From NCBI RefSeq assembly GCF_021134715.1, contig NC_060023.1, positions 10,354,001 through 10,418,000 of the forward strand: a stretch of 64,000 bases of DNA. The letters run 5' to 3'. Positions 11,379 to 33,711 of this stretch are shown in pieces. The notes under the pieces were generated by a model. It saw only the letters and a list, made by a program, of their open reading frames with translations. It made no database searches and had not been told where the DNA came from. The stretch's first letter is position 1; every line of letters begins with the position of its first letter. The position numbers were made by a program, and so were the translations under genes. The DNA is from Daphnia pulex (taxonomy: Eukaryota; Arthropoda; Branchiopoda; Diplostraca; Daphniidae).

Positions 11379-14300
11379 ATCCGGTGACGTCTTAACATAT
11401 TATACATTTCCCCTTCTTTTCTCCTCCACCCTTTCTCTGTCGCTATATAAAGGAAACAAAACAAAACCTTTATTTGTGTTAACTGTGTGCACACACTTTT
11501 CCTACCCTTTTTTTTCTTCTCTAATTCTGTTTGTACATACATACATACAATAAACACACTCACTCACTTTCACGCGTATCGCGAGTTCTCCGTGTCCTTG
11601 TGTGTGTGTTTGCGCGACTCGTGTCCACCCTCTACTTCCACTAAGCAGTAAGCACTAGTACATGCCTTGATAGTATTTATCGATCAGTGCCGTGGATCGT
11701 GCAGGTGCCAGGGAAGTCTCAATCAACCTTTACACAAACACTTTCGGCTATAGATCTTGTGTTAAAAAAAGAAAATAAAAATGAAGTCTTTTCTCGGCGG
11801 TCAGCTCGTTCGACACGGTTATGTCAATTCGTAGGTTTTGTTGAGGTAGATATTTAAATTTCGGATAAGGTTAGAGACCGTTTGCACTCGATCAAAGACT
11901 GCTGGTATGGGGGGTTGAGTCCATTATATTCAAATGCGCCCAAACTGACTCTCTTCTTTCCTATACAAACGTGTTGTGTGAGTTACAGCTGTATTATGAG
12001 AGCGTTACATTGCCGAGATCAATGGACTGCTCGTTCGTGATGCGGTTCTTCATTCGTGTATGGCGTGTGCTGATGTGTGACATCAGAAACAAAAACAAAA
12101 CAAAAAGTATCCACCCACCTATGAGGTGGGGGGTAGAATATTTTTCCTCGAAGCACAGACGGCATTGAAAAGGTGATGAGGTGGGGTGGCGGTGCGGGAA
12201 ACTTTTTTTTTCTTTTTCTTTTCTCGTCATGTTACAACTCCCCGACTCCTCCCGCACACGACTGGATCGTCAAGAGCGCAGGGAATGTTAAAAAAAAAAT
12301 AAAATAAAAACCCAAAAACTGGAAAAAAATGAAAGAAAAGAAAGAAGGAAAGAAACTTTTTGTGATGATGTATATTTTATCATTTCTAAATATCTCGAAA
12401 AATATCGAAACTCATCAGTTTGAAAAGCCTAACGAAAAAAAAAAAAAAAAACTTGTACCGAGAAACTTGGTCCGTCACGCCACACGGCACGAAAAAACAG
12501 ATTGAATTAAGAGACTCTAAAAGAACAAACTTTTTTCCCGATTTAACCCCAATCCCACACACATTTTTCTTTGGCTCCTTCCTTTTTGATTGAATAAATA
12601 ATCAGAATATTTGGTTTATTTTGATTTTTATTATTCGCCGAGCTGAGCAACAGTCACGCAGATAATAGAAGCTTTGAAAAAAAGAAAAAAAAATGATTTT
12701 ATGCGCATTATCCAGCGCTGCGAAGAGTTGCGGAATTATTGATCAAGTTAAATAAGCTTCTAACGTACCCTACTACCCTTTATACGTTGGCTTAAAATGA
12801 TTTTAACATGTTTTTCACCTTCATTTATTATTGAGTTGGCGAAAGTCTTTTCTCCTACCTTTCCAGACTCGGATGTCAGAGTCGAAAGTAAAACACTACA
12901 GACTGGGACTTGTCTTTCAAATACAAAGTTCTTCTCCTAGCTGGTCTATATATATAAGAGGGATGAAGAGTGGTATACTATATAGAATGTTATCGATTTC
13001 CATCTAACCGAGAAGCCGATAGAGTCAAAACGGATAAATAAAACAAAAGAAAGAAAGAAGAGCTCATCTTTTGCGTGGTCTCTCTCTCTGTTTGTTTCCT
13101 TCCTCCTTTTTTTCTTTGAAAATAAGAGGCGCAGTTGCACATTTTGAGGCGACGTGAACGAAATGAACAAGTTTATGGTCGGGATGTTTGTCGAGCGCAG
13201 CATTGTTCTTTTTGTTTCCGGTCGAGACCTGCAGTTCACCATCGCTCCTCCAATTGTCTAACACGTTGGAATTTATTCCCACGAAAAACCAACACTATAC
13301 TTTGGGAGTTGTACGTATATTTTTCTTCTGGATGTATCGATGTATCGACTGAATCTTCTTCTTCTTCTCTAAAAAAAAAAAAAAAAACTCTTGAAAACTT
13401 TTCCGCTCCGGATGACAGTTGACTCGTGACGTGACCGGCATCGTCAACTTTTGGTACGGCCGACAACTTTGCCGTTCTTCCGTTATTCTTTTCCCCCTTA
13501 TAAAAAAAAAGTAGTCGGTCGTCTATATCTTCTTCATCTTTTTGGCTTGAAAAACAAAACAAAGCAAACGTACTATACGCAACTCTACGGCGTTTGGTGA
13601 TGGATTAACCGGCCGCGGTCTCTACTAGGCTAAGATGTCATCTGTGTGTAGTGTAGTGTAGTGGGACCGCCGGTTTGGTACACGTGCGCGGCGTCTAGTA
13701 AGTGAACACACTTTCGTCGATTGCTTTTCCGTTAGTCGTCGTGTAAAAGGCCTTGATCAAATCAACGTCAGTTGCGTCTTACAGTTTTGCCCGCACGACG
13801 GAAGCCACTCCCCCGTCAATGTACAAAATTTCACCCAGGCGCTGCCGACATATCGGTTGAGCGCATTTGATGTGCACGCCAATCATCCTTTATCACGGCA
13901 ATTGATAACCGTGTAATCTTCTTATTCTCTTTTTTTTATTTTATTATTATTTTTTTAAAGAAAATTGAAGTTGTACCTTCGTTAAATTTGTTCGATGATG
14001 CAGACGACGATGGACCTTGCGCGTTGTGTAATATCAACGTAGCTCCTTGTTAGAATCCAACGGGGTAGAGATAACGCGGAAGATTGGCGCTCTCCACAAA
14101 GGATCGCATCCACTATACAGTATACACACAACATTTTGGCTACAGCTTTAGGACTCTGTACTACTACTACTTCTACTACGTATATCTATCTATTTTCATT
14201 GAAATGGAACTGGGAAGAAGGGAGTGAGATTTTGGAGATGACACGTCAATTGAATTTACCTCGGCGCGGGATCGGCTCCCACTGGCGCTGACGCAGAGTC

Positions 14301-15313
14301 GAGACTCTCTTCTCTCTCTCTCCCTATTTTATACATATTATTGCTTTTACATCACTCTCTCGTCTTTCCCATTTTCCCTTGCATGAGCTGCTTGCTCTGC
14401 ACGGTAGGATTGTACACTATCGATAAGAAATTTCCGCCGAAAAAAAAAGAATAAAAATCCTGAGATAGCCCACGTTCAAAGAAAGACTCGACTGATCGAA
14501 TCACGCCTCCTCCTCCTCTCAAAAGAATAGATATTTAGATTATTCATCGGAGATAAAGGGCTGCTGGTGGGTTATCCTGCGCCTCCAATTGCAACTTTGG
14601 TTCAAGTCACATTTTCTTTTCGCTCGCGGAACACTCCAGCAGGACACGCCGATTACATTGCGGTGGCAATTCTTTTTCGACGTTGGAGGTGAGAAATTCG
14701 ACGGTGTGTCGTCTCGCTTCTTTTTAAAAAATGCAGTGTAGTAACCGGTCGAAAGAGTGGGCAGCATGCAAGTCGGCACTTTATGGACAACAGTTCACTT
14801 TGCGTGTTTTTTGAGCCACTGCAGTTGGATTATTTTTTTTTTTTATTAAAGCTGTTACAAATTTTCGCTATTTGAGTGATTTTGCATAATACCATACAGT
14901 GATGCGACTTTGCATGGATTTTAATTTTAACTGAGACAAAGTCTAACTTTTTTCGTACAAGCAATTGAGATTTTTTGAAACATTTCGCTCCAAACTAGTA
15001 CCCGCGGTAACCTTGCAACAGAAATTATTTTGCTTCAGAAAACATAGGTTGTGAGCTTGCATTATTGGATTAGACCATTTCATTTCTTTTGTCACGAGCA
15101 CCTAGTATTTGGCCAGGTACATGAGAACTGCTGAAATAATCTGAAAACATTTAGTCAAGAATGCACTAAGAATCATCTATTACAAAATAGTTAACTTATT
15201 ATCCGATCTCCGTTGTTTAACTTTTTTAATTGTTTTGAAATTTGAAGTAACGAACGGCGTGTCATTTCTGTCATGTGATGCGACTGCGATGTGACTGTGC
15301 AGTGTGCAACAAA
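11379..15313. other. Intergenic region without a recognised gene
   Basis: About 3.9 kb with no supportable coding exon on either strand. It consists of AT-rich and low-complexity DNA (poly-A/T and poly-C runs, CT-rich stretches). A splice-acceptor-like sequence precedes a short open frame near 13785-13915, but the frame resembles no family I can name and has no partner exon. Confidence 0.45.
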
Positions 15314-15995
15314 CTTAAGATTCAAAACTCATTACTAGATATCGCCAGTGTCGCCCTTGTTGTTCTTTTACATTTGGTTACATCGTGAAACGAGGCAAAA
15401 TGGGCGAAACAATTTGTTGCTAATTTATACTTACGTTCCTGTGATTTCAAATACCGAATTTAACTTCATATCTTATGTAGGTTCAGCTTGACCTAGTTTT
15501 CTTATTTTTATGTTATTCTAACTTATTTCTTCAAAATCTAGCTGCAAGTCATTCCAACAAGTTGACTTAAGCACTAGTTGCTTTTCATCTATTAGATCCT
15601 CATGATGTCAATAACCTAAAACTCATGATTGAAGCCCACACATAGAGGAATACAAATGTATGGAGATAAAGTATTCCCCCATTACTGCTATCAGACCATT
15701 ACAATTCAGATTTTCATATAACATAGGTATTCTTGCTTATGAATCATAGGATCTTTTCTTAATCTCGTTTCTGAATTTTGGTGGTGTACCCGCAACAGCA
15801 TTTTTGTTGTTTTGGCTGTTTTTACTTCGGTTTAGAAGGCAACCCAGCTAAGAGTTAGGTAAAGATTTATTTTGTATAGGTAAATTTGGAAATAACGTAG
15901 ATAATTTCCTTGTCCAATTGCTGTTTAGAAAATCAGTGACATGAAGAGTGTCAAGTGAACAACCTGCTGCAATGTGTATGTACATTTACCAGATC
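15314..15995 (+). repeat. Dispersed repeat, outer copy (direct orientation to 22326-23010)
   Basis: This block aligns by eye, with roughly 10-15% differences, to 22326-about 23010 in the same orientation, and to about 21690-22305 in inverted orientation. Shared landmarks include CTTAAGATTCAAAAC, CATCGTGAAACGAGGC, TCATTCCAACAAGTTGACTT, and a segment around GATCATAGGATCTTTTCT-like sequence. No long open frame or named transposase was recognised. It may be a non-autonomous element or a relic of an older duplication. The three copies in this window flank and form the tip of the large palindrome. Confidence 0.7.
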
Positions 15996-16313
15996 TGTAC
16001 ATGAGTACAGATGTATAATAGGAAACAATTTTATTTTTTAAATCCATGTAGTCAATAATCATTTCATTCTTTCCAACAGACGTGCAAACACGAATTTTAT
16101 GAATTTCGTTTTGGGGTCAATGGAGTTGGCGCTGATTGCCGTTACTGGCCTTTTTCGACGTCTTGATATCAGTTTGGAATAATAGCTCTGGAGTCTGGAC
16201 TCTAGGGAATTCTCACTCGTACTCGAGGTAACTTTGCAGTCAACATATGTGAGGAGTTTTCAATTCGTTACAATTTTTGCATGTCTTCGTTGTGTTTTTT
16301 TGCATCGCTTGGA

Positions 16314-16625
16314 GGTCACAAGAAACATTTCGTAAAACTGGCATGCGGTGGTGTAGAGGTTGGGTGAGAATTACACGTGTTTCATCATTATCAAGCAGGT
16401 ACCATAGCCGCAAGGGTAAGCTATTTGGTGTTCATTTTGATATTGGTTTTTGTAGACCCATCCCCAGCAACGTCTACCTAAAGAAGGAAAGGCCAGTTTG
16501 CATTTCAATCGAAGGTCATGGAGATCATTAAGTAAAAAGTGTCATGCAGTGGTGTAGAGGTTGGGTGAGAACGGGACATTTTGTATCATTTTATCAAGAA
16601 GGTAAAATAACCGCAAGGCTTAAGA
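16314..16625 (+). repeat. Tandem ~200-bp promoter-upstream module, two copies (left arm)
   Basis: A module beginning GGTCAC/GGTCAT and containing GGTGGTGTAGAGGTTGGGTG-type sequence occurs twice about 200 bp apart (core at 16350 and 16551), each followed by a related TATCATTATCAAG / CCGCAAG stretch. The mirror copies lie at about 27960-28265. The modules sit immediately upstream of the TATA box at 16646 and may be duplicated regulatory sequence. The core fits a loose tRNA A-box pattern, but no B-box or cloverleaf follows. Confidence 0.55.
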
Positions 16626-16645
16626 GGAGGGGTGAGAAAAAGTCG

Positions 16646-16680
16646 TATAAAAGGCGAGAGAAAAGTCGACAGGGATCAGT
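16646..16680 (+). promoter_or_regulatory. TATA box and initiator of first YYTT-repeat gene (left arm)
   Basis: TATAAAA at 16646-16652 is followed about 30 bp downstream by TCAGT at 16676-16680, the arthropod initiator consensus. The start codon of the first YYTT-repeat gene follows at 16766. The spacing is textbook for a polymerase II core promoter. Confidence 0.65.
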
Positions 16681-16765
16681 CGAGCGAGTATCTCCGACAC
16701 GGTAACAGCTGCATTCCACTATCTGCCATCAGCTGCATTCTTCATCGTACTATCAGTTCTCAATC

Positions 16766-17207
16766 ATGGGTAAGTTTTCTGTTTGTCGTATTTAGTTGTG
16801 TATCAATATTCAATTTCTATTTTTTTTTCTATTTGCTATTAGCCAGTTATTGTTGAATGGTAATGTTTGAATTTTATCATTTGTCTAGTAAACTATGCTG
16901 CCGTGCTGTTGTTGGGTGTTGTGTCGTTGATGGCTGGTTCAGCCACTGGCGTACCGATGTATCCTGGGTATGGCGGATACCAAAGCACTACACTGCCGCC
17001 TTAGGACACAACTTACGACACAACCAGTTGCTACACCGATGCCCCCCAGGTACTTCACCACCATGCTGCCCCGAGCTACTACACCGAATCCCCGCAGTAT
17101 TATTCTTCTCCGAGCTACACTACTAAAGGGTAGAGTACTACACCGAGGCTCCCCAACACTACACCACCAAGGCACCGGAGTACTACACCACTACATATCA
17201 TGGGTAA
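16766..17207 (+). pseudogene. YYTT-repeat secreted protein, copy A, left arm (broken)
   Basis: Exon 1 supplies only ATGG (16766-16769); exon 2 begins at 16889 after a TCTAG acceptor. The joined frame starts MVNYAAVLLLGVVSLMAG, a good signal peptide, then GVPMYPGYGGYQSTT. A TAG at 17002-17004 stops it. The same frame then resumes with motifs such as YTDAPQ, SYYTESPQYYSS and SYTTKG, and a further frame slip near 17130 moves the YYTEAPQ/KAPEYYTT motifs into another frame. The lesions indicate a relic of a small secreted tyrosine-, threonine- and proline-rich protein. I do not recognise a named family; repeated YYTT/KAPE motifs suggest an extracellular structural role. The copy in the right arm also has TAG at the same codon. 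Confidence 0.65.
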
Positions 17208-17299
17208 ATATTCTGTTAGGTCGAGTTTTAATATGTCAACTACTAAATATACAAATTATTTAATGTCTATTAGTAATGAAGGAGAGAAAAGGTGAAATA

Positions 17300-17869
17300 T
17301 TTCAGCAGCCGATTGAGCATCTCCGTTACGGCAACAGGAACTGCCGTGCACTATTTGTCATCAACTTCATTCTTCGTCGCATTAAAAGTTTTAAATAAAG
17401 GTAAAAATTTTTCCATAGAGTTGTGAATCAACTCTTCTTTTTTTCTATTTCTTAATATACCAGTACCATAATTGAAAATAAATGTTAAAATTTATTAATC
17501 GTCTAGTAAACTATGGCGTCGTGCTGCTGTTGGGTGTTGTATTGTTGATGGGTGGTTCAGCCATGGTGTACCGATGTCTCCTGGGTATGGCGAGTACTAA
17601 AGCACAACACTGCCGTGCCGTCTAACTAATTAGCATCAACTTCCGCTGCTCCAGCTTACTACACTGAGGTTTACAAGTGCTACACCACCATGGATCCAGA
17701 GTATTACACCACAGCTCATGTTGCCCCGACCTACTACGCTGAATGCCCGAAGTATTTTTCTTCCCCGAGCTACACTACCAAAGGGTCGAGAACTACGTCG
17801 AGGCTCCCAAGTACTACATCACCCAGGCACCGGAGTACAAAAACGGTTGAATACTACACAGAAGCTATC
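17300..17869 (+). pseudogene. YYTT-repeat secreted protein, copy B, left arm (broken)
   Basis: This second copy retains a degenerate 5' region (17300-17400) resembling that of copy A, but the TATA box is lost and the start codon region reads AAAGG instead of ATGG before the donor at about 17400. Exon 2 starts at 17507 after TCTAG and encodes NYGVVLLLGVVLLMGGSA, then a one-base loss (GCCATGGTG instead of GCCACTGGTG) shifts the frame. Downstream motifs (EYYTTAHVAPTYYAE, PKYFSSPSYTTKG, YYTEA) are still legible in mixed frames. It lies directly between copies A and C in the same orientation, so this is a tandem gene family. Confidence 0.6.
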
Positions 17870-19316
17870 ATGGGTAAATATTTTTTTTATTTTTCATGGA
17901 AATTTGAATCAACTTTCTAATTGCCAGTATGCCAGTTATTAATGCAAATTGAAGTTCAAATTATTTGTTGCCTAGGAAACTATGGTGTCGTGTTGCTGTG
18001 AGTGTTGTAATCATGATGGCTGGATCGACCACTGGTGTGCCGATATCTCCTGGGTATGGTGGGCATCAACAACATACGCAACAACCGCTTACTACACTGG
18101 GACCTGCAAGTGCCAAACCACCAAGGCTTCAGAGTATTACACCACAGTTTATGTTGGCACGAGCTACTACGCAGAAGCTCCGGAATAATTTTCTTCCCCG
18201 CTTCACTACCTTCACCACGCCGCGTCCTTACTAAACAACAACAACAACGTCGTCAACACCTACTTACTAAACGAACGCCTCCAAGTACTACGCCATAAAG
18301 GCTTCGAGTATTAAACTTCAACCTATGATGCTCCAGCTAACTATAATAACGCTCCCATGTACTATTCTGTTCCCAGCTACCACACCGAGGATCAACCTGT
18401 TACACCGCCGAAGCGCCCAAGTACTGCACTACAACCTACATTGCCCCAGCTTACACCACGAAGGCAGCGGAGTCCTACTACACCACGAAGGCAGCGGAGT
18501 CCTACTACACCACGAAGGCAGCGGAGTCCTACTACACCACGAAGGCAGCGGAGTCCTACTACACCACGAAGGCAGCGGAGTCCTACTACACCACGAAGGC
18601 AGCGGAGTCCTACTACACCACGAAGGCAGCGGAGTCCTACTACACCACGAAGGCAGCGGAGTCCTACTACACCACGAAGGCAGCGGAGTCCTACTACACC
18701 ACGAAGGCAGCGGAGTCCTACTACACCACGAAGGCAGCGGAGTCCTACTACACCACGAAGGCAGCGGAGTCCTACTACACCACGAAGGCAGCGGAGTCCT
18801 ACTACACCACGAAGGCAGCGGAGTCCTACTACACCACGAAGGCAGCGGAGTCCTACTACACCACGAAGGCAGCGGAGTCCTACTACACCACGAAGGCAGC
18901 GGAGTCCTACTACACCACGAAGGCAGCGGAGTCCTACTACACCACGAAGGCAGCGGAGTCCTACTACACCACGAAGGCAGCGGAGTCCTACTACACCACG
19001 AAGGCAGCGGAGTCCTACTACACCACGAAGGCAGCGGAGTCCTACTACACCACGAAGGCAGCGGAGTCCTACTACACCACGAAGGCAGCGGCAAGTTAAA
19101 CCGAGGCTCCAGTTTACTACAATACAACCTTCGCTGCTCCATCGTACTACACCGATGTTCCCAAGTACTACACCATCAAGGCATCCGAGTATTACGCATT
19201 ACTTACGCACAATCATTACTACACCGAAGCTTCGAACGCATCACTCTGCCCCGAGTTACTACACCACTAAGGCAGTCAAATATTACACCACAAACTACTA
19301 TCCCGCAATTTTCTAA
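17870..19316 (+). pseudogene. YYTT-repeat secreted protein, long copy C, left arm (broken)
   Basis: Exon 1 (ATGG, 17870-17873) and exon 2 (from 17976) would give MGNYGVVLL, then TGA caused by a one-base change; without it the frame would continue into a signal peptide and GVPISPGYGGH. Further downstream the ancestral frame encodes AAPSYYTE/APKYYTT-like repeats, then 24 copies of a 9-residue unit YYTTKAAES, then a TAA at about 19098 where the related motif would read YTEAP, and several more YYTE/KASEYY motifs to a terminal TAA at 19316. Two other frames are open through the repeats only because the unit is 27 bp long and stop-free. The product, if ever made, would be an extended Tyr/Thr/Lys-rich repeat protein. 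Confidence 0.6.
18453..19091 (+). repeat. 27-bp minisatellite, 24 units (left arm)
   Basis: The unit TACTACACCACGAAGGCAGC followed by GGAGTCC repeats with essentially no variation; the core AAGGCAGCGG recurs every 27 bp from 18461 to 19082, giving 24 cores. In the ancestral frame each unit encodes YYTTKAAES. The near-absence of point differences indicates recent unit turnover. Confidence 0.93.
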
Positions 19317-19871
19317 AAGGAAATTTCTAAATACTAGGGCCGGAAATTCTTGAGGTTATTTATATATGTCGGTTATTTTCGTGGTCATTGGTTATTGGGA
19401 ATTAATTATTGATCTTACATGAAAAAATAAAAGTTTTAATATGGGTAATTCTTTTGTAAGAGTTTTAACTACAAGTTTGTCAACATTGCGTGCAACATTA
19501 TAGGTACTTCTTCAAGGCCGGTATGCTGAGTTGTGAATTTTTTGTTTTATGTTTTAGCTGTGACTACTGCCTTAGTCATACAGACATTGTCTTGTGATTC
19601 GACGATGCTATTTCAAAGGTGAGTTACGAAAGAAACTTGTAACTGTTGATTTTTTAAAATCTTATAAATAATGGGGAAGTGATTGACTTTTGTAAAAATG
19701 AAAAACTTTGAAGTTGAGAATAATATATTGATACAATTCCTAAACAAAACATAATATAAATTAAAAGACAATGAACAAAATACTTATAAAAAGAATTATG
19801 TTATATTGTCCCACCTCCACCCACAATTCCACCACATTTTACAGTCACATACATACATACATACACTTAAG
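19317..19871 (+). other. Arm sequence between pseudogene C and MITE (left)
   Basis: AT-rich 3' flank of the YYTT-repeat copy C. It contains an AATAAA at 19426-19431 that could be the poly(A) signal of copy C, and a short tandem TACA repeat just before 19870. No other gene was recognised. The mirror image is at about 24822-25376. Confidence 0.5.
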
Positions 19872-19875
19872 TTAA

Positions 19876-20138
19876 CCCGTTGGCTGCCACGCCATACAAC
19901 TCGTAGGTTGTACTCTACTACTCTACGCGCCACGTCTGAAGGATCCATGACCAAGTGGGACTTGCCATTGCTGACAAGTCCGTGCTGACAAGGGGGGGAC
20001 TAAGGTGCATTGCCTTTTGACAGGCTTGCCTTGCGGCAAATTTTGGGCTTGGCGACTCCCCGACCCCGCGGCTTTTAAACCACGAGACCGAACAGCGCGG
20101 CCCGTGCAGGGGAGAACAAAGGCGTGGCAGACAACGGG
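19876..20138. mobile_element. piggyBac-type MITE, 263 bp, left arm
   Basis: The element is bounded by TTAA on both sides (19872-19875 and 20139-20142). Its ends are 18-bp terminal inverted repeats: CCCGTTGGCTGCCACGCC at the left and the complement of CCCGTTGTCTGCCACGCC at the right, differing at one base. TTAA target sites and ends starting CCC are hallmarks of piggyBac transposons. At 263 bp with no transposase it is a non-autonomous miniature element. An identical insertion lies in the mirror arm, so it was present before the arms were duplicated or was copied by conversion. Confidence 0.82.
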
Positions 20139-20479
20139 TTAACTAACACAACACAAACGAAATAATACCAACAATACGATGATCCACGTTGATGACGAGT
20201 CTCGGTGTCGGTCGCGATTCGACCGAGTTTCGTTCGCACCAGAAGCAGGGGCAACATCCGACGGAGACCGATGACGACCATTAAAGATGAAAAAATCCAT
20301 CTTCTCGACGTTTCCTCTGCATTACCTGAATAAAGAGAAAACAATTCTTATTAAGTGACATGCCAATAAAAGTTACATAATACAGATAGAAACAATAACC
20401 AGGTTTTTAAGCTCAAACATTTAAAGATACACTTTTTTAAACTTAAAATCAAGCTTGCAATATTGAGAACTGTAAACAG

Positions 20480-20869
20480 AACAAAGCTCACTTGCTAGTT
20501 ACAAAAAAAAATTCCGGAAGTAGACCGGAAGTAACCACAGCGCCTCAACCATTGACCTGTCGTCAAATTAAACCACATATTCGTGATCTCCATGAAATTT
20601 GGGGTCGAATAGGTGTGATTTAAACGAAATCCAAAATTTGGCCAAAATCGAGAATTTTCCTGAACTATAGTTCAGGAAAATTTTCGAAACCGGAAGTACG
20701 AAAACGTAAAAAAGATAACATGAACTTTACCACAAATTTTACGGGGATCACGAATATGTGGTTCTTTTGCTCCTCAGATGAATATTTACTGAACTACTGA
20801 CTGAAATGAGCAAACCGGAAGTAGAAAAAAAAAAACTTATTATCAAAAATCTAACAAGTGAGCTTTGTT
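20480..20869. mobile_element. ~390-bp MITE with inverted ends and internal palindrome, left arm
   Basis: The ends AACAAAGCTCACTTG (20480-20494) and CAAGTGAGCTTTGTT (20855-20869) are perfect 15-bp inverted repeats; beyond them the similarity continues weakly (CTAG, ATTTTTG-like, ACTTCCGG). The middle (20653-20682) is a perfect 30-bp palindrome centred on TGAACTATAGTTCA. GACCGGAAGT/ACTTCCGG motifs and ATTCGTGATC motifs also occur on both halves, so much of the element is a fold-back. No coding capacity. The family is unknown to me; no clear target duplication was seen. Confidence 0.7.
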
Positions 20870-21690
20870 GGAGGTATAGTTATCGTCAGTTTCCACTAAA
20901 ATTTTCCACACAACAGCTGCCGATAAATGTTTAAAGAGATTTTCAAAGTAACTGAAACTGACTGTTTTGACAGCTGAAAATTATCGAAAAGCCATCTAGC
21001 GTTAGAAAAAAGAAACGTCTAAATAACACACTAACACTTCTTTTACGCGCAAGAGGGGCCTGATTTTGGAATTACTACACAGACAAAGAGTTTTACGCAA
21101 AAAGATAACTAGTAGATAATCTACGAAAATAATTCAATTGTCCGGTACCTGGCCATAATCCCGTGGTGAGTGACTGCACACTGCAGGTGTGTAACAGCGG
21201 ACGGAAGCGATCACTGAAGTGATCCAGAAACTCGCCAAGTCGCCAGTGAAGTAAAACCAATTGTGTTTAGAAGCAGTGAAACTAGATGAGCGTGCGTCGC
21301 GAAGATAAGGATGGAGAAGAACGTTGATGGAAATCCCTCTTCCGTCATGGTCAGCATTGGCTCAAGAATCTCCGTGCCAGGACCACACGATTCCATAAAG
21401 AAACTGCGTGCTCTGTAAAATAAAATGTTTTACATTAATAAAAATATAACAAAGAATAAAGCATTTCAATCTTTACCTATTTTAAGAAGCACACTGATTG
21501 TTCATGATGGAAAAACCGTGAAAATGGAATTCACAGCAACCAACAGCATTACTCCACATGATGAGATAAATTTCCTGATGCTAAAGAAAGTGTCATGAAG
21601 AATTGTAACTGAGCTTGGTGATAGGTGGTATTGATGCTTACCTTTATCATGCGGGTGATGAATTTAGTAAGGCATTTGACTTTCATCAAG
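20870..21690. other. Arm sequence of unknown content (left)
   Basis: Near-identical to 23005-23825 in the other arm. Short open frames appear on both strands, for example 61 codons at 21211-21396 (minus), but they match no family I recognise and no splice chain is convincing. May be transposon relic or non-coding. Confidence 0.4.
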
Positions 21691-22305
21691 CAGATCCGGT
21701 ATATGTGGAATACACATGGCAGGCTATTCACTCCCACTCTTCACGTCACTGAAACTCTAAGTAGCAAAGGGACAAAGAAATTCTCTACATTATTTACAAA
21801 TAGACAAAAATTTACTTATGAGAAATAAAACTGTACCTTTCTCTTAGCTGTATTGCTTTCTTAACAGAAGTAAAAACATCCACAACAACAAACATGCAGT
21901 TGCAGCTAGGTACACCACCAAAATTGCGAGATTCAGAAAAGATCCTATGGTTCAAGAATACCTATGTTACATGAAAATCTGAATTGTAATGGTCTGGTAG
22001 CAGTAATTGGAAAATACCTTATCTCGGCAAATTTGTATTCCACTACATGTGGGCTTCAAACATGAGTTTTTGGCTTTTGAAATCATGAGGGTCTAATCCG
22101 ATGGAAAGTGACTGAGTGCTAAGTCAACTTGTTGGAATGACTGACAGTATGCATCTAGAATTTGGAGAAATAAGTTGGTACAGTATACAAATAAGGAATA
22201 TACTATGCCAAGATAAACCTACATAAGTTACGAAGTTCAATTTAGTATGTGAAATCACAGGAATATAAGCCTCGTTTCACGCTGTAACAACAACAAACGC
22301 GACAC
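21690..22305 (-). repeat. Dispersed repeat, inner left copy
   Basis: Reverse-complement relative of 22360-about 23010 and of the outer copy at 15314-15995. It differs from its mirror partner at roughly one base in ten, with several indels, unlike the outer arms. It forms the left half of the palindrome tip. Confidence 0.7.
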
Positions 22306-22396
22306 AAGCCCCATCGTGTTACCTACTTAGGATTCAAAACCCATTACTAGATGTCGCTAGTGTCGCCTTTGTTGTTGTTACATCGTGAAACGAGGC
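22269..22396. repeat. Hairpin tip of the palindrome
   Basis: GCCTCGTTTCACG (22269-22281) and GTAACAACAACAAACGCGACAC-type sequence (22284-22305) pair with GTGTCGCCTTTGTTGTTGTTAC (22360-22381) and CGTGAAACGAGGC (22384-22396). The loop is only about 54 bp (22306-22359). This is the symmetry centre of the 12 kb inverted repeat. Confidence 0.8.
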
Positions 22397-23010
22397 GAAA
22401 AAGGAGAAACAAATTGTAGCTAATTAATACTTTAATATTCCAGTGATATCAAATACCAAATTGAACTTCGTAGCTTATGTAGGTTAATCTTGAGTTTATC
22501 CTAGTTTCCTTATTTTTAAATTGTACCAACTTATTTGAGTTATTTCCCCAAATTCTAGATGCATACTGTCAGTCATTCCAACAAGTTGACTTAGCGCTGA
22601 GTCAATTTCCATCCATTAGATCCTCATGCAGTCAAAAGCCTAAAACTCATGTTTGAAGCACACATGTAGTGGAATACAAATTTGCCGAGATAAGGTATTT
22701 TCCAATTACTGCTACCAGACCATTACAATTCAGATTTTCATGTAACATAGGTATTCTTGAACCATAGGATCTTTTCTGAATGTCACAATTTTGGTGGCAT
22801 AACCTGCAACAGCATGTTTGTTGTTACGGCTGTTTCTACTTCTATTTAGAAGACAACCCAGCTGAGGGATAGGTAGAGTTTTATTTCTCATAGGTAAATT
22901 CATATAAATTTGTAAATAATGTAGAGAATTTCCTTGTGCCATTGCTACTTAGAGTTTCAGAGACATGAAGAGTGTGAAGTGACGTGCCGTGTATGTACCA
23001 GATCTGCTTG
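22326..23010 (+). repeat. Dispersed repeat, inner right copy
   Basis: Direct-orientation relative of 15314-15995 (both begin CTTA(A/G)GATTCAAAAC and share CATCGTGAAACGAGGC), and inverted relative of 21690-22305. Together these give three copies of one repeat, two of them head-to-head. Confidence 0.7.
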
Positions 23011-23825
23011 ATGAAAGTCAAGTGCCCTACTAAATTCATCACTCATATGATAAAGGTAAGCAAAAATTCCACCTATCACCACGCTACTGCAATACTTCAT
23101 GACACTTCCTTTAGCATAAGGAAATTTATCTCATCATGTGGAGTAATGCTGTTGGTTGCTGTGAATTCCATTTTCACGGTTTTTCCATCATGAACAATCA
23201 GTGTGCTTCTTAAAATAGGTAAAGATTGAAATGCTTTATTCTTTGTTATATTTTTATTAATGTAAAACATTTTATTTTACAGAGCACGCAGTTTCTTTAT
23301 GGAATCGTGTGGTCCTGGCACGGAGATTCTTGAGCCAATGCTGACCATGACGGAAGAGGGATTTCCATCAACGTTCTTCTCCATCCTTATCTTCGCGACG
23401 CACGCTCATCTAGTTTCACTGCTTCTAAACACAATTGGTTTTACTTCACTGGCGACTTGGCGAGTTTCTGGATCACTTCAGTGATCGCTTCCGTCCGCTG
23501 TTACACACCTGCAGTGTGCAGTCACTCACCACGGGATTATGGCCAGGTACCGGACAATTGAATTATTTTCGTAGATTATCTACTAGTTATCTTTTTGCGT
23601 AAAACTCTTTGTCTGTGTAGTAATTCCAAAATCAGGCCCCTCTTGCGCGTAAAAGAAGTGTTAGTGTGTTATTTAGACGTTTCTTTTTTCTAACGCTAGA
23701 TGGCTTTTCGATAATTTTCAGCTGTCAAAACAGTCAGTTTCAGTTACTTTGAAAATCTCTTTAAACATTTATCGGCAGCTGTTGTGTGGAAAATTTTAGT
23801 GGAAACTGACGATAACTATACCTCC

Positions 23826-24213
23826 AACAAAGCTCACTTGTTAGATTTTTGATAATAAGTTTTTTTTTCTACTTCCGGTTTGCTCATTTCAGTCAGTAGT
23901 TCAGTAAATATTCATCTGAGGAGCAAAAGAACCACATATTCGTGATCCCCGTAAAATTTGTGGTAAAGTTCATGTTATCTTTTTTACGTTTTCGTACTTC
24001 CGGTTTCGAAAATTTTCCTGAACTATAGTTCAGGAAAATTCTCGATTTTGGCCAAATTTTGGATTTCGTTTAAATCACACCTATTCGACCCCAAATTTCA
24101 TGGAGATCACGAATATGTGGTTTAATTTGACGACAGGTCAATGGTTGAGGCGCTGTGGTTACTTCCGGTCTACTTCCGGAATTTTTTTTTGTAACTAGCA
24201 AGTGAGCTTTGTT
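23826..24213. mobile_element. ~390-bp fold-back MITE, right arm
   Basis: Mirror copy of 20480-20869: ends AACAAAGCTCACTTG (23826-23840) and CAAGTGAGCTTTGTT (24199-24213), with the same central palindrome (TGAACTATAGTTCA, near 24020). It is shorter by about two bases than its partner. Confidence 0.7.
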
Positions 24214-24554
24214 CTGTTTACAGTTCCTAATATTGCAAGCTTGATTTTAAGTTAAAAAAAGTGTATCTTTAAATGTTTGAGCTTAAAAACCTGGTTATTG
24301 TTTCTATCTGTATTATGTAACTTTTATTGGCATGTCACTTAATAAGAATTGTTTTCTCTTTATTCAGGTAATGCAGAGGAAACGTCGAGAAGATGGATTT
24401 TTTCATCTTTAATGGTCGTCATCGGTCTCCGTCGGATGTTGCCCCTGCTTCTGGTGCGAACGAAACTCGGTCGAATCGCGACCGACACCGAGACTCGTCA
24501 TCAACGTGGATCATCGTATTGTTGGTATTATTTCGTTTGTGTTGTGTTAGTTAA

Positions 24555-24817
24555 CCCGTTGTCTGCCACGCCTTTGTTCTCCCCTGCACGGGCCGCGCTG
24601 TTCGGTCTCGTGGTTTAAAAGCCGCGGGGTCGGGGAGTCGCCAAGCCCAAAATTTGCCGCAAGGCAAGCCTGTCAAAAGGCAATGCACCTTAGTCCCCCC
24701 CTTGTCAGCACGGACTTGTCAGCAATGGCAAGTCCCACTTGGTCATGGATCCTTCAGACGTGGCGCGTAGAGTAGTAGAGTACAACCTACGAGTTGTATG
24801 GCGTGGCAGCCAACGGG
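24555..24817. mobile_element. piggyBac-type MITE, 263 bp, right arm
   Basis: Mirror copy of 19876-20138, again bounded by TTAA (24551-24554 and 24818-24821) and of exactly the same length. Inverted ends start CCCGTTG. Presence in both arms at corresponding positions shows it shares the arms' history. Confidence 0.82.
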
Positions 24818-25376
24818 TTAACTTAAGTGTATGTATGTATGTATGTGACTGTAAAATGTGGTGGAATTGTGGGTGGAGGTGGGACAATATAACATAATTC
24901 TTTTTATAAGTATTTTGTTCATTGTCTTTTAATTTATATTATGTTTTGTTTAGGAATTGTATCAATATATTATTCTCAACTTCAAAGTTTTTCATTTTTA
25001 CAAAAGTCAGTCACTTCCCCATTATTTATAAGATTTAAAAAAATCAACAGTTACAAGTTTCTTTCGTAACTCACCTTTGAAATAGCATCGTCGAATCACA
25101 AGACAATGTCTGTATGACTAAGGCAGTAGTCACAGCTAAAACATAAAACAAAAAATTCACAACTCAGCATACCGGCCTTGAAGAAGTACCTATAATGTTG
25201 CACGCAATGTTGACAAACTTGTAGTTAAAACTCTTACAAAAGAATTACCCATATTAAAACTTTTATTTTTTCATGTAAGATCAATAATTAATTCCCAATA
25301 ACCAATGACCACGAAAATAACCGACATATATAAATAACCTCAAGAATTTCCGGCTCTAGTATTTAGAAATTTCCTT

Positions 25377-26715
25377 TTAGAAAATTGCGGGATAGTAGTT
25401 TGTGGTGTAATATTTGACTGCCTTAGTGGTGTAGTAACTCGGGGCAGAGTGATGCGTTCGAAGCTTCGGTGTAGTAATGATTGTGCGTAAGTAATGCGTA
25501 ATACTCGGATGCCTTGATGGTGTAGTACTTGGGAACATCGGTGTAGTACGATGGAGCAGCGAAGGTTGTATTGTAGTAAACTGGAGCCTCGGTTTAACTT
25601 GCCGCTGCCTTCGTGGTGTAGTAGGACTCCGCTGCCTTCGTGGTGTAGTAGGACTCCGCTGCCTTCGTGGTGTAGTAGGACTCCGCTGCCTTCGTGGTGT
25701 AGTAGGACTCCGCTGCCTTCGTGGTGTAGTAGGACTCCGCTGCCTTCGTGGTGTAGTAGGACTCCGCTGCCTTCGTGGTGTAGTAGGGCTCCGCTGCCTT
25801 CGTGGTGTAGTAGGACTCCGCTGCCTTCGTGGTGTAGTAGGACTCCGCTGCCTTCGTGGTGTAGTAGGACTCCGCTGCCTTCGTGGTGTAGTAGGACTCC
25901 GCTGCCTTCGTGGTGTAGTAGGACTCCGCTGCCTTCGTGGTGTAGTAGGACTCCGCTGCCTTCGTGGTGTAGTAGGACTCCGCTGCCTTCGTGGTGTAGT
26001 AGGACTCCGCTGCCTTCGTGGTGTAGTAGGACTCCGCTGCCTTCGTGGTGTAGTAGGACTCCGCTGCCTTCGTGGTGTAGTAGGACTCCGCTGCCTTCGT
26101 GGTGTAGTAGGACTCCGCTGCCTTCGTGGTGTAAGCTGGGGCAATGTAGGTTGTAGTGCAGTACTTGGGCGCTTCGGCGGTGTAACAGGTTGATCCTCGG
26201 TGTGGTAGCTGGGAACAGAATAGTACATGGGAGCGTTATTATAGTTAGCTGGAGCATCATAGGTTGAAGTTTAATACTCGAAGCCTTTATGGCGTAGTAC
26301 TTGGAGGCGTTCGTTTAGTAAGTAGGTGTTGACGACGTTGTTGTTGTTGTTTAGTAAGGACGCGGCGTGGTGAAGGTAGTGAAGCGGGGAAGAAAATTAT
26401 TCCGGAGCTTCTGCGTAGTAGCTCGTGCCAACATAAACTGTGGTGTAATACTCTGAAGCCTTGGTGGTTTGGCACTTGCAGGTCCCAGTGTAGTAAGCGG
26501 TTGTTGCGTATGTTGTTGATGCCCACCATACCCAGGAGATATCGGCACACCAGTGGTCGATCCAGCCATCATGATTACAACACTCACAGCAACACGACAC
26601 CATAGTTTCCTAGGCAACAAATAATTTGAACTTCAATTTGCATTAATAACTGGCATACTGGCAATTAGAAAGTTGATTCAAATTTCCATGAAAAATAAAA
26701 AAAATATTTACCCAT
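25377..26715 (-). pseudogene. YYTT-repeat secreted protein, long copy C', right arm (broken)
   Basis: Mirror of 17870-19316. Exon 1 ATGG lies at 26712-26715 and exon 2 begins at 26609. It has the same early TGA after NYGVVLL, the same frame breaks and the same stop after the repeat array. It has 20 rather than 24 copies of the 9-residue unit, and one unit carries a substitution (GGCTCC for GACTCC on the plus strand). Confidence 0.6.
25602..26124 (-). repeat. 27-bp minisatellite, 20 units (right arm)
   Basis: The complement CCGCTGCCTT recurs every 27 bp from 25602 to 26115, giving 20 cores. One unit near 25789 has a single base difference. The left arm has 24 units, so the arrays have changed length since the arms were last identical. 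Confidence 0.93.
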
Positions 26716-27285
26716 GATAGCTTCTGTGTAGTATTCAACCTTTTTTGTACTCCGGTGCCTTGGTGATGTAGTACTTGGGAGCCTCGACGTAGTTCTCGAC
26801 CCTTTGGTAGTGTAGCTCGGGGAAGAAAAATACTTCGGGCATTCAGCGTAGTAGGTCGGGGCAACATGAGCTGTGGTGTAATACTCTGGATCCATGGTGG
26901 TGTAGCACTTGTAAACCTCAGTGTAGTAAGCTGGAGCAGCGGAAGTTGATGCTAATTAGTTAGACGGCACGGCAGTGTTGTGCTTTAGTACCCGCCATAC
27001 CCAGGAGACATCGGTACACCATGGCTGAACCACCCATCAACAATACAACACCCAACAGCAGCACGACGCCATAGTTTACTAGACGATTAATAAATTTTAA
27101 CATTTATTTTCAATTATGGTACTGGTATATTAAGAAATAGAAAAAAAGTAGAGTTGATTCACAACTCTATGGAAAAATTTTTACCTTTATTTAAAACTTT
27201 TAATGCGACGAAGAATGAAGTTGATGACAAATAGTGCACGGCAGTTCCTGTTGCCGTAACGGAGATGCTCAATCGGCTGCTGAAA
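26716..27285 (-). pseudogene. YYTT-repeat secreted protein, copy B', right arm (broken)
   Basis: Mirror of 17300-17869. Exon 2 begins at 27078. It shares the one-base loss after GGSA and the lost start codon. Small differences from the left copy occur, for example ACCTTTTTTG versus AACCGTTTTTG (complement) near 26740. Confidence 0.6.
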
Positions 27286-27377
27286 TATTTCACCTTTTCT
27301 CTCCTTCATTACTAATAGACATTAAATAATTTGTATATTTAGTAGTTGGCATATTAAAACTCGACCTAACAGAATAT

Positions 27378-27807
27378 TTACCCATGATATGTAGTGGTGT
27401 AGTACTCCGGTGCCTTGGTGGTGTAGTGTTGGGGAGCCTCGGTGTAGTACTCTACCCTTTAGTAGTGTAGCTCGGAGAAGAATAATACTGCGGGGATTCG
27501 GTGTAGTAGCTCGGGGCAGCATGGTGGTGAAGTACCTGGGGGGCATCGGTGTAGCAACTGGTTGTGTACTAAGGCGGCAGTGTAGTGCTTTGGTATCCGC
27601 CATACCCAGGATACATCGGTACGCCAGTGGCTGAACCAGCCATCAACGACACAACACCCAACAACAGCACGACAGCATAGTTTACTAGACAAATGATAAA
27701 ATTCAAACATTACCATTCAACAATAACTGGCTAATAGCAAATAGAAAAAAAAATAGAAATTGAATATTGATACACAATTAAATACGACAAACAGAAAACT
27801 TACCCAT
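27378..27807 (-). pseudogene. YYTT-repeat secreted protein, copy A', right arm (broken)
   Basis: Mirror of 16766-17207. Exon 1 ATGG is at 27804-27807; exon 2 begins at 27684. The frame opens with the same signal peptide and ends at TAG in the same codon after TTLPP. It lacks 12 bp just after that codon compared with the left copy, the clearest coding-region difference between the arms apart from the minisatellite. Confidence 0.65.
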
Positions 27808-27892
27808 GATTGAGAACTGATAGTACGATGAAGAATGCAGCTGATGGCAGATAGTGGAATGCAGCTGTTACCGTGTCGGAGATACTCGCTCG

Positions 27893-27927
27893 ACTGATCC
27901 CTGTCGACTTTTCTCTCGCCTTTTATA
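27893..27927 (-). promoter_or_regulatory. TATA box and initiator of copy A' (right arm)
   Basis: On the minus strand TATAAAA (complement of 27921-27927) precedes TCAGT (complement of 27893-27897) by about 30 bp. It is the mirror of the promoter at 16646, so transcription from both arms would run toward the centre of the palindrome. Confidence 0.6.
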
Positions 27928-28268
27928 CGACTTTTTCTCACCCCTCCTCTTAAGCCTTGCGGTTATTTTACCTTCTTGATAAAATGATACAAAATGTCCC
28001 GTTCTCACCCAACCTCTACACCACTGCATGACACTTTTTACTTAATGATCTCCATGACCTTCGATTGAAATGCAAACTGGCCTTTCCTTCTTTAGGTAGA
28101 CGTTGCTGGGGATGGGTCTACAAAAACCAATATCAAAATGAACACCAAATAGCTTACCCTTGCGGCTATGGTACCTGCTTGATAATGATGAAACACGTGT
28201 AATTCTCACCCAACCTCTACACCACCGCATGCCAGTTTAACGTAATGTTTCTCGTGACCTTCAACCAA

Positions 28269-30318
28269 ATTCATAGGAAATGATACCGGTTGATTATTTT
28301 ATTCAAATATACAGATTATCCATTCTCTCTTCCTTTACCTCTTTTTTCAACAAAGAGAAGAATAGAAAGAAAAAAGAGAAAAAGGCGAAAACCGGGGGTA
28401 AGGTAGGTACCGTGATCGTGGTTTCTTCCCAATGGAGACACGTTTAACGATTGGAAGCTGTCTGTACAAAAAAAAAAAAAAAAAACAAAAAAAAAAAAAA
28501 AACAGACAGTTTTAAAGAGGATTTCCCAATGAGTAGATCCAATGAGAATGTGCATTCATAGATGTTCTAAACGCGTTTCAATATCTACCAAAGCAAGTGC
28601 GATTTGTGGACTCAACACTGACTTCCTCTTTCTTGAGCAGCGGCGGCGTCTTTTCGGTGGTCAGGATCATGGCAAATAAATAACAACTACCATGTCTGGA
28701 TTAGATGTTGGGAATATTATCCGTTTCGACGCCAATTGTAGGATCACACTGAACATACCGATGTTCAAGGACTTCTATCAAAATTAATGTAATGAATCTA
28801 AAATCGTCACAAGAGGCAACCGTAAACTTACCTCGAGTACGTGTGAGTGACGAGAAAAAACTCGAACAAAAAGTGGCCACTGTTTCAAAACCTCTATGAA
28901 AAGACAAAATAACATTTGTGGAATTATATTCTTTAATCATGGCAAAATATGTGGTTTATTAATTGTATGCACCTTTACGCATGATTGCCTCTAAATTGTA
29001 TTGCTCTTGACAAAGGACCTTGTTAAATTTTGTCATGCAAGCAGCTTTTCCAATTGATGGGGCTGCTTGACATGACACACCAGTCTAACGATCCTCCATG
29101 ATAACGAATTACGACTGATAAGACGTACTGGCTGTAATTTAAATTTAACATGGAATTGTTTTAACATATTTTCCTTTATAGTTGACTTTAAGAGGAAAAA
29201 TTAAACGTCTTTACCTTTAAGTACATGTGCCATGGAACTACTTTCATTAATTCATTAACTAGCATTTGGTATACCATTTGCAAGAAACGAATGAAAGATC
29301 TTTATGGGATCCCGGTTCCCATGCCCAGTGCAATCGAGTGACGTTCGCGAGATTTATTGGTCTTGAACTTGAGGATTCGCTACAAATAATCGGTCCTAAT
29401 ACGAGCCAACGAACAAAAAATTTAATTCAACACCAATAGATTGCTTGATAGTTTAATAGAATATTCACATCAGATGGAGTTTGGTCTGTGTGATTTTAGC
29501 GTTGGAAGTTCTTTACCATTTTTTTTGGCGGTCTTCAACTCAGTGATAAAGGAAACCATATGAAAACACAATCCGGAAGCAGTAAACCCTATTCAGAAAG
29601 AAGGAAAAAAATCAAATCAATTTTTTGAAGCATTTTCGTATTGATATAGAATCCGCAAGGCACTAAAACTAAGAAAATAAGTTTGACAAGGGCGGTGGTT
29701 TTTAGCAGACCAAACATAAAGCATCTTACTAAAGCATGTCACTGTTAGGTTAAAAAATTATTGTCGAATTTAGGCAGCAAAATATGACAAATCGGCAGTA
29801 GTGTTGTGTGGTCAAATTAGAAAAATAAAATTTATGAATCCTGTTTTAAAGCTCAAGGCAATATCTGCAATAAGCTTGATAGTATTGTTCAATGACTCCA
29901 AGAATAATTTTTTTAAATGCGCAATACGGAGAGAATATTCTACCAACGAATCTTTCAGCTAACGTTGTTGATAATATTTTTGGTTTATCTATACGGCTAC
30001 GGCGCTATTTAAAGCCACTACTGTTAAAGAGTAACAGAAAGTAGAAACGGATTCCGATGGACAAAGACGTACGAAGTAAAAAAAAGAAAAATTCAATTCC
30101 GATCCAAAAGCATTTTTAACCGAGTAAACAAATAAAAACTTGCCAACCATATGGGTCAAGTTACAGATAGCTTCTGATGCAGCGCTAGATACAGCCCTAA
30201 AAATGCTGTATAAAGCTTTTGATAAAATATTACTATGGGAGGAGGGGCAAAGCGAACGTGAGGGTAAATATTTATTTCCCACTAACTAGTTGCTGCTACG
30301 CAGTCTGTGTAGGACGTC
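28269..30318. other. Intergenic region right of the palindrome
   Basis: No gene was recognised in about 2 kb. There is an A-rich tract (28468-28502, interrupted by one C) flanked by CTGTCTGT and ACAGACAG, a small inverted pair. Short open frames on the minus strand have no family resemblance. Confidence 0.5.
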
Positions 30319-33010: not shown

Positions 33011-33711
33011 ATATTTTCAATCAACAGGGGGAATTGACTGAATGTCTGTTATCTGTCTATATCTGTTATTTGTCCTTAAAATACAATCAATCCCCCCGCG
33101 TGCAAATAAAAGTCGGTTGCAAAGCAAAATTCAAATCAATCTTGGAATATTTCATCTTCTATTGTCCAAAACAAGCAAGTGTCTTAAAATCGCTGTTTGT
33201 TTTAGCAATGCAACATTAGTAAAGACTCTATAACAAAATAAACCATAACCGCCTCAACGCAAAAAAAATTATTTGTCTAACAACGAACCATGCTAGATGT
33301 AGATTCGCGAGATTTTTAGTTAATCTAGTAAAATATGCACGGAAATCTCAATTTTTAATATATAAGACTAAAGATATCATAAAGTTAAACTAATCTAATC
33401 CTATATCATTTATATTTCATTTTACGCATGCCGTATAATGCAATCTACTAAAAAATGTTTTAAAATAGCTTAAAAGAAATTAAACAGATATGTTCAAACT
33501 CAAACATTTGGAACAATATAACGTTTCACGGCAAAGAGGGAAAAAAAATTCGTTAACGGCATGGGGTTAAGCAACTATACATAATTCATCTTTAATAGTC
33601 TAAAAAGAGAAATCCAAGGTTGCTAAACCAAACTTTGTAGAGCCTGAAAAAAGCAGTGTTTGTAAACACTAGAGACACAACTAGTCGCAGTCAACGCAGT
33701 CTGGCTGAAAC
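33011..33711. other. Spacer between the two ACSF2-type genes
   Basis: Contains AATAAA at 33105-33110 and 33237-33242, probable poly(A) signals for copy 1. The rest presumably holds the promoter and 5' UTR of copy 2; no TATA box stands out. Confidence 0.5.

Follow-up and report, generated by a model that had tools for sequence, protein, structure and literature searches.

The inverted arms of some palindromes are known to be kept alike by copying from one arm to the other. The accessible text on the human Y-chromosomal palindrome P6 reports 56 conversions versus 3 inversions among 83 phased chromosomes (PMC3723533). In invertebrates, a survey of 26 parthenogenetic animals, 23 of them screened for palindromes, lists in its accessible parts 19 palindromes in Adineta vaga, 15–16 in Folsomia candida, one to four in eight more species and none in 13, Daphnia pulex having been excluded with its annotation lacking (PMC7953838); a Folsomia report describes, in the portion available to us, 11 palindromes of collinear genes (PMC5490193). 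Here we describe a palindrome of about 12 kb, designated P1, in a stretch of 64,000 nucleotides of the D. pulex genome (the window; C7:10354001-10418000, C7 being contig NC_060023.1), which we compared with the 133,188,837 bases of the genome in 13 contigs. On the sequence comparisons, P1 is one member of a set of dispersed, convergent inverted loci around a head-to-head pair of a repeat, which we call E. The comparisons show that asymmetric centres spread or were duplicated as whole, already inverted units, and we consider it probable that the arms were then homogenised, locus by locus, by recurrent gene conversion halting near the axis.

The window palindrome and its family

Self-comparison of the window gave inverted arms at 16309-22266 and 28264-22435, and the pairing extends inward to 22315 and from 22350 when the centre is read by eye. 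The elements needed to follow the argument are these:

16309..22315, + strand: left arm of P1 (self-comparison, arm alignment and centre reading)
22316..22349, no strand: unpaired spacer at the P1 axis, 34 nt (read by eye)
22350..28264, - strand: right arm of P1 (self-comparison and arm alignment)
21691..22315, + strand: repeat E, left axis half, diverged and putatively refractory to conversion
22350..22982, - strand: repeat E, right axis half, diverged and putatively refractory to conversion

The whole palindrome covers 16309-28264 with arms of ~6.0 kb each, and the flanks outside 16309 and 28264 are unpaired with each other. Across the outer ~5.2 kb (16321-21520) the arms differ by 17 mismatches, a 12-bp indel at 17005-17016 and a 2-bp indel at 20825, and a 27-bp minisatellite has 23.7 copies on the left versus 19.7 on the right, i.e. 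four units. The preliminary description of this DNA had already named the four units, the 12-bp indel and scattered bases, correctly in each case. The innermost ~0.75 kb carries 81 mismatches, a zone absent from that account. Identity of ~99% over 6-kb arms is far above chance, and the palindrome is real. The near-perfect, almost spacer-less 12-kb structure first proposed therefore stands with its 34-nt spacer, but its perfection does not extend to the axis-proximal zone, where the arms are ~10–15% different. No second long copy was found for window 28300-29700 in the genome (27 of 27 candidates scored) or for window 14300-15007 among 40 scored of 108 candidates, and there is accordingly no support for a segmental duplication, large and simple, that would have included the unique flanks of P1.

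Palindromes of this kind had been expected to be rare outside sex chromosomes and amplicons, an expectation that does not hold in this genome: a hand tally from four genome searches gave ~43 related convergent inverted loci, P1 included, on ten contigs, so that the family is not confined to a non-recombining sex chromosome either. The locus counts are lower bounds, and the palindromic state of those loci whose sequence was not read is unproven. A search that took the outermost kilobase of the left arm as query gave, among 40 scored of 585 candidates, at least 15 further inverted pairs, 8.7–15.8 kb apart, plus unpaired matches; inner-arm and E queries gave further pairs, including some on C3 and C10. 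A signal-peptide exon of the genes in the arms, used as query, placed 76 of 150 scored matches (of 701 candidates) in convergent pairs less than 16 kb apart. These pairs make 45 combinations, 31 with equal score, versus 2 divergent and 24 same-strand combinations; the convergent-minus-divergent excess is 43, and the maximum in 2000 strand shuffles was 23. We read the sequence of 25 loci, namely P1-P6, P8-P10, P12 and P15 (eleven, with outer arms), I1 and I2 over 7–8 kb, E1 and E2 over ~3.4 kb, and J1-J10 only as ~3-kb centres. The axis is intact in 23 of the 25; P4 and P6, each without one inner half, were left out of all axis profiles, and P8 out of the measures nearest the axis.

Arms alike within a locus, centres alike between loci

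Within loci, most of the longest arm pieces are 97.5–100% identical when matches below the length cut-offs are excluded, and the inverted arms are generally ~99% or more identical, pieces of P2 and P4 excepted; P1 shares about 67–96% arm identity with the other loci. The median arm difference within loci is 0.00% at 500–3000 bp from the axis (11–13 loci); bins beyond 3 kb read too high because ends of P9 and I1 are misaligned. A tree of the core (no support values) joins left and right arms as sisters in 9 of the 11 loci with both arms. When P1 is compared with P2, the minisatellite excluded, grouping is by locus at 276 sites and by side at 11, and no site is crossed; all 11 by-side sites lie from 21.7 kb inward, where only 3 sites group by locus. 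On this and on the axis comparisons below, arms change in concert within a locus, and the palindromes are older than the divergence between loci. Since the arms are near-identical within a locus and different between loci, kilobases must have been copied later from one arm to the other. Exchange between loci also seems to occur, a sign of it being the right inner arm of P2 (L009-L010), which clusters in the core tree with P5 and P6 and not with its own left arm.

Near the axis the relationships are different. Over the first 250 bp, spacer included, 12 of 13 loci could be measured, and in all 12 left and right differ by 6.6–18.9%. In 22 of 23 loci the arms match from a certain edge outward, which lies 35–1526 bp from the axis with a median of about 470; J7 has no matching edge within the ~1.5 kb read. 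At 40–180 bp a half has its own partner as nearest relative in only 3 of 22 loci (median difference 11.2% to the partner, 1.7% to the nearest other locus), the own difference being 4.1–17.8% in 20 of the 22 and 0.0% in E2 and J10. The partner is nearest in 6/21 loci at 180–320 bp, 6/18 at 320–500 bp, 6/17 at 500–700 bp, 14/23 at 700–950 bp and 20/23 at 1200–1430 bp, where the medians are 0.0% to the partner and 3.4% to another locus. Both axis halves are closer to another locus than to each other in 18 of 22 loci, the halves without a better match elsewhere being those of P5, E2, J9 and J10. The two halves of P1 itself differ by 11.5%, and they match J2, ~0.66 Mb away on C7, with differences of 1.8% when matched and 11.7% when crossed. 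In many loci each half of the asymmetric centre thus has an orthologue of its own at another locus, so the centres must have been inverted before they were dispersed or duplicated as whole units. Spacer types are found in both orientations among the loci, which is suggestive of an inversion of centres. Only two loci, P12 with about 1 kb of flanking sequence and P2 with 212 bp, allow such flips to be compared with the flanks, and we do not take them as proof of crossing over.

The two states are best seen together in I1 and I2, both on C9 and ~236 kb apart. At 40–250 bp from the axis the difference between them is 1.1% for corresponding sides and 13.7% for opposite arms, with 23 sites grouping by side and 0 by locus. 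The ratio of by-side to by-locus sites is 6/0 at 250–500 bp, 0/16 at 500–750 bp and 0/17 at 750–1000 bp, and the border lies 318 bp from the axis in I1 and 270 bp in I2. The two loci are 7% apart at 500–1000 bp and 0.4–1.0% apart at 1–2 kb, identically in both arms; past 2 kb their arm sequences are different ones, yet each locus is palindromic. A shared axis with differing palindromic arms implies that kilobases were copied from arm to arm after separation in at least one of them, and that this copying left the axis untouched.

Taken together, these profiles show that the arm-to-arm copying usually halts abruptly some hundreds of bases short of the axis. The copying is probably recurrent gene conversion, in which a broken arm would be repaired with the other arm, on the same or the sister chromatid, as template. 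It would stop where the E copies are already ~10–18% apart, because recombination needs near-identical DNA, and a halt at diverged E would make the border self-sustaining. That divergence sets the border is suggested by the abrupt transitions, by the similar borders of I1 and I2 although their arms changed, and by the E halves of a locus differing about as much as E copies elsewhere, which mostly have 85–92% identity. Purely geometric exclusion near the axis is weakened as an explanation by E2 and J10, whose identity reaches almost to the spacer, so that a position close to the axis does not in itself prevent copying. The gene copies of P1 are broken, and selection on genes is therefore unnecessary for the likeness of the arms. 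With an imperfect centre the palindrome would also extrude and break less readily. Survivor bias may contribute, since more perfect palindrome centres are described in the accessible part of one source as more prone to secondary structure and breakage (PMC7999016).

Several observations weigh against this explanation. The partner is nearest in only 10 of 23 loci at 950–1200 bp, partly because borders lie further out, and P2, J7 and J10 lack their own partner as nearest relative even at 1200–1430 bp. Five of the 18 centre matches are narrow (P2, P10, P12, P15 and J1), and the near-complete identity of E2 and J10 means that the refractory zone is not universal. The identity of the longest arm pieces falls to 93.4% in P2 (2.7 kb) and to 88.6% in P4 (1.6 kb), and the arms of P2 and P3 are not left-right sisters in the core tree. 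The basis is sequence comparison within one assembled genome from one isolate; polishing could hide small arm differences, although not 10–15%, so the exact 0.0% values carry a reserve.

Could each locus instead have been born separately? E-E centres might have dispersed with at most one arm, and one fold-back copying event per locus might have made the second; the arms would then be identical from birth, only the old E pair would be diverged, and continuing conversion would be unnecessary. The accessible text of PMC7999016 describes how short inverted repeats prime fold-back copying. The structure to be expected from it, identical arms on either side of a diverged, short imperfect inverted pair at the axis, agrees with what is seen. 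The common centre and different outer arms of I1 and I2 would fit as well. Arm differences should in that case be even along the arms, and they are not: P8 has none at 500–2500 bp and 1.5–2.3% at 4–5.5 kb, P2 has 10–17% at 0.75–1.5 kb and 0.0% at 2–5.5 kb, and the mosaic between I1 and I2, the same in both arms, needs more than one copying round. Patchy differences inside one locus such as P8 are the pattern given by conversion tracts, and together with P2 and the mosaic they argue for repeated copying rather than a single birth. We regard separate births as unlikely, though less so than the two alternatives that follow.

Loci known here from the assembly alone, not from reads, with many arm stretches exactly identical, might also raise the suspicion of a missed hairpin adapter, a false haplotype join, or a repeat collapsed and re-expanded. 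A missed adapter predicts a perfect axis, and the axis here is the least symmetric part, with the differences at 40–180 bp given above for 20 of 22 loci. The preliminary description had itself named a false haplotype join as its possible undoing; such a join would not give axis halves with separate orthologues at loci with other flanks, as the halves of P1 have at J2. The arms of P1, moreover, are set apart by 17 base differences, by two indels and by a length difference of four repeat units, and they adjoin different unpaired flanks without a second long copy among the candidates scored. An artefact is the least probable of the explanations considered, and the idea that every copy is a recent insertion of a Foldback-like transposon whose inverted ends are very long is hardly better placed. 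The loci are dispersed and convergent with internal tandem repeats, and E occurs in at least 40 places in the genome, as such an element would lead one to expect; outer ends are not common, however, among the 11 loci with outer arms read, and recent insertion leaves unexplained a diverged axis common to other loci. In P1 and P9 the arms end at the homologue of 16.33 kb, whereas they continue past it for ~3.4 kb in P3 and ~1 kb in P5. What looked like a boundary common to the loci, near 16310, turned out to be a ~205-bp repeat where the P1 flank changes, and the Foldback class was rejected.

Composition of the arm and neighbouring sequences

From the outside to the centre, the P1 arm consists of ~205-bp promoter-side repeats, three gene copies, a core with two elements resembling miniature inverted-repeat transposable elements (MITEs), and E. 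The three pseudogenes, two MITEs and minisatellite of the preliminary description are all present in the left arm, the pseudogenes as tandem broken gene copies and the MITEs as MITE-like elements with inverted ends:

16310..16618, + strand: promoter-side repeat of ~205 bp, two copies, recurring at the outer arm of other loci
16765..19320, + strand: three tandem broken copies of a gene for a secreted, Tyr-rich (YYTTKA-type) repeat protein
18452..19091, + strand: 27-bp minisatellite, left arm, 23.7 copies
25602..26133, - strand: 27-bp minisatellite, right arm, 19.7 copies
19870..20144, no strand: MITE-like element with 24-nt inverted ends
about 20482..20867, no strand: MITE-like element with inverted ends CAAAGCTCACTTG
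15313..15997, - strand: further E copy beyond the left arm, 78% to the axis copies

Signal-exon copies lie near 16885, 17505 and 17975 in the left arm, with a frame of 46 amino acids; exon 2 of the tandem gene starts VNYAAVLLLGVVSLMAGS or similar, and the minisatellite sits inside the last of the three copies. The Plasmodium_HRP match of the minisatellite frame in Pfam was taken as a low-complexity match. An intact relative of the broken genes is a 357-amino-acid frame in L033 (C1:4613201-4617200), which matched no family in Pfam. L033 holds two such frames, divergently oriented, with 1.8-kb arms 98.9% identical, so that divergent pairs of the gene family are also near-identical at times. Unpaired signal exons often have a single E ~3–6 kb downstream on the same strand (C12:1143292, C12:1197460, C7:11515898 and C7:11247427), and E looks as if it were the 3' flank of an ancestral gene unit.

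Hand matching puts at least 11 of the E places no more than 1 kb from a dispersed ~220-bp repeat, whose window copy is at 15008-15227. This repeat recurs near several contig ends (C7:17253, C12:41988, C9:50928, C7:12208259 and others) and is possibly subtelomeric. TTAGG repeats are abundant in the genome, and arrays of them inside contigs, far from the ends (C1:3295816 and C2:8780730), are perhaps interstitial telomere repeats or joins. Elsewhere in the window, 30540-36444 contains a direct duplication in pieces of ~0.9–1.3 kb with 86–88% identity, the frame 30528-30812 resembles an acyl-CoA synthetase on its translation, and the frame 61109-61606 resembles what we take to be the haem-binding region of a cytochrome P450.

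Significance and comparison with known systems

P1 is more interesting as a member of its family than as a single locus. Spacer-less palindromes this large are expected to be unstable, and dozens appear to persist in one animal genome. As natural replicates, the loci reveal in which zones one arm is copied onto the other and at what point this ceases, and they make two questions testable: what protects the axis of a palindrome, and what degree of divergence brings gene conversion to a halt in vivo. In such families, counts of genes, ages of duplicates and variant calls from short reads would be misleading because paired copies look newborn at any age. Provided that the arms are at equilibrium, the rate of conversion per base would exceed that of point mutation by about three orders of magnitude, according to the usual formula, 2 divided by the pooled arm difference of 0.05–0.14% at 1.5–3 kb. 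More tentatively, and with the odds somewhat against it, we could envisage a self-maintaining class of palindromes, in which an asymmetric core refractory to recombination, made up of the E pair and the spacer, would be inherited as a unit and stabilise the axis while the arms were repeatedly overwritten over kilobases. Anything entering one arm might then be copied to the other, a different gene included (cf. I1 and I2), and the core might act as an engine turning single genes into identical convergent pairs throughout the genome.

Foldback and Galileo transposons are dispersed and have long inverted arms with internal tandem repeats. The present loci share these features with them, but unlike them have no outer terminus common to the members. 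We recognised no earlier description of this palindrome family in the literature covered, mostly open-access, and the accessible text of a paper that names the KAP4 D. pulex assembly has no occurrence of 'gene conversion' or 'inverted' (PMC12102780). Fold-back-primed inverted duplications, as far as the accessible account goes, likewise have a central short inverted repeat with near-identical arms outside (PMC7999016); here, in contrast, the centres are orthologous between loci in 18 of 22 cases and the arm differences are patchy, so that one birth per locus is insufficient. The palindromes of A. vaga and F. candida are also multi-locus and found in invertebrates, and gene conversion has been proposed for them, but they are collinear multi-gene blocks found by annotation, for which the accessible parts of the two reports describe no shared centre (PMC7953838, PMC5490193). 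In the human Y palindromes, such as P6, arm-to-arm conversion similarly keeps inverted arms alike, and arms are older than their identity suggests; according to the same partial source, those palindromes mostly have large non-homologous spacers and lie on one non-recombining chromosome (PMC3723533), whereas the Daphnia family is spread over ten contigs as ~43 homologous loci, its spacers are tiny and its axis zone is diverged. In summary, the family probably consists of conversion-maintained palindromes of a known kind, and what appears to be new is the recurring refractory zone at the axis.

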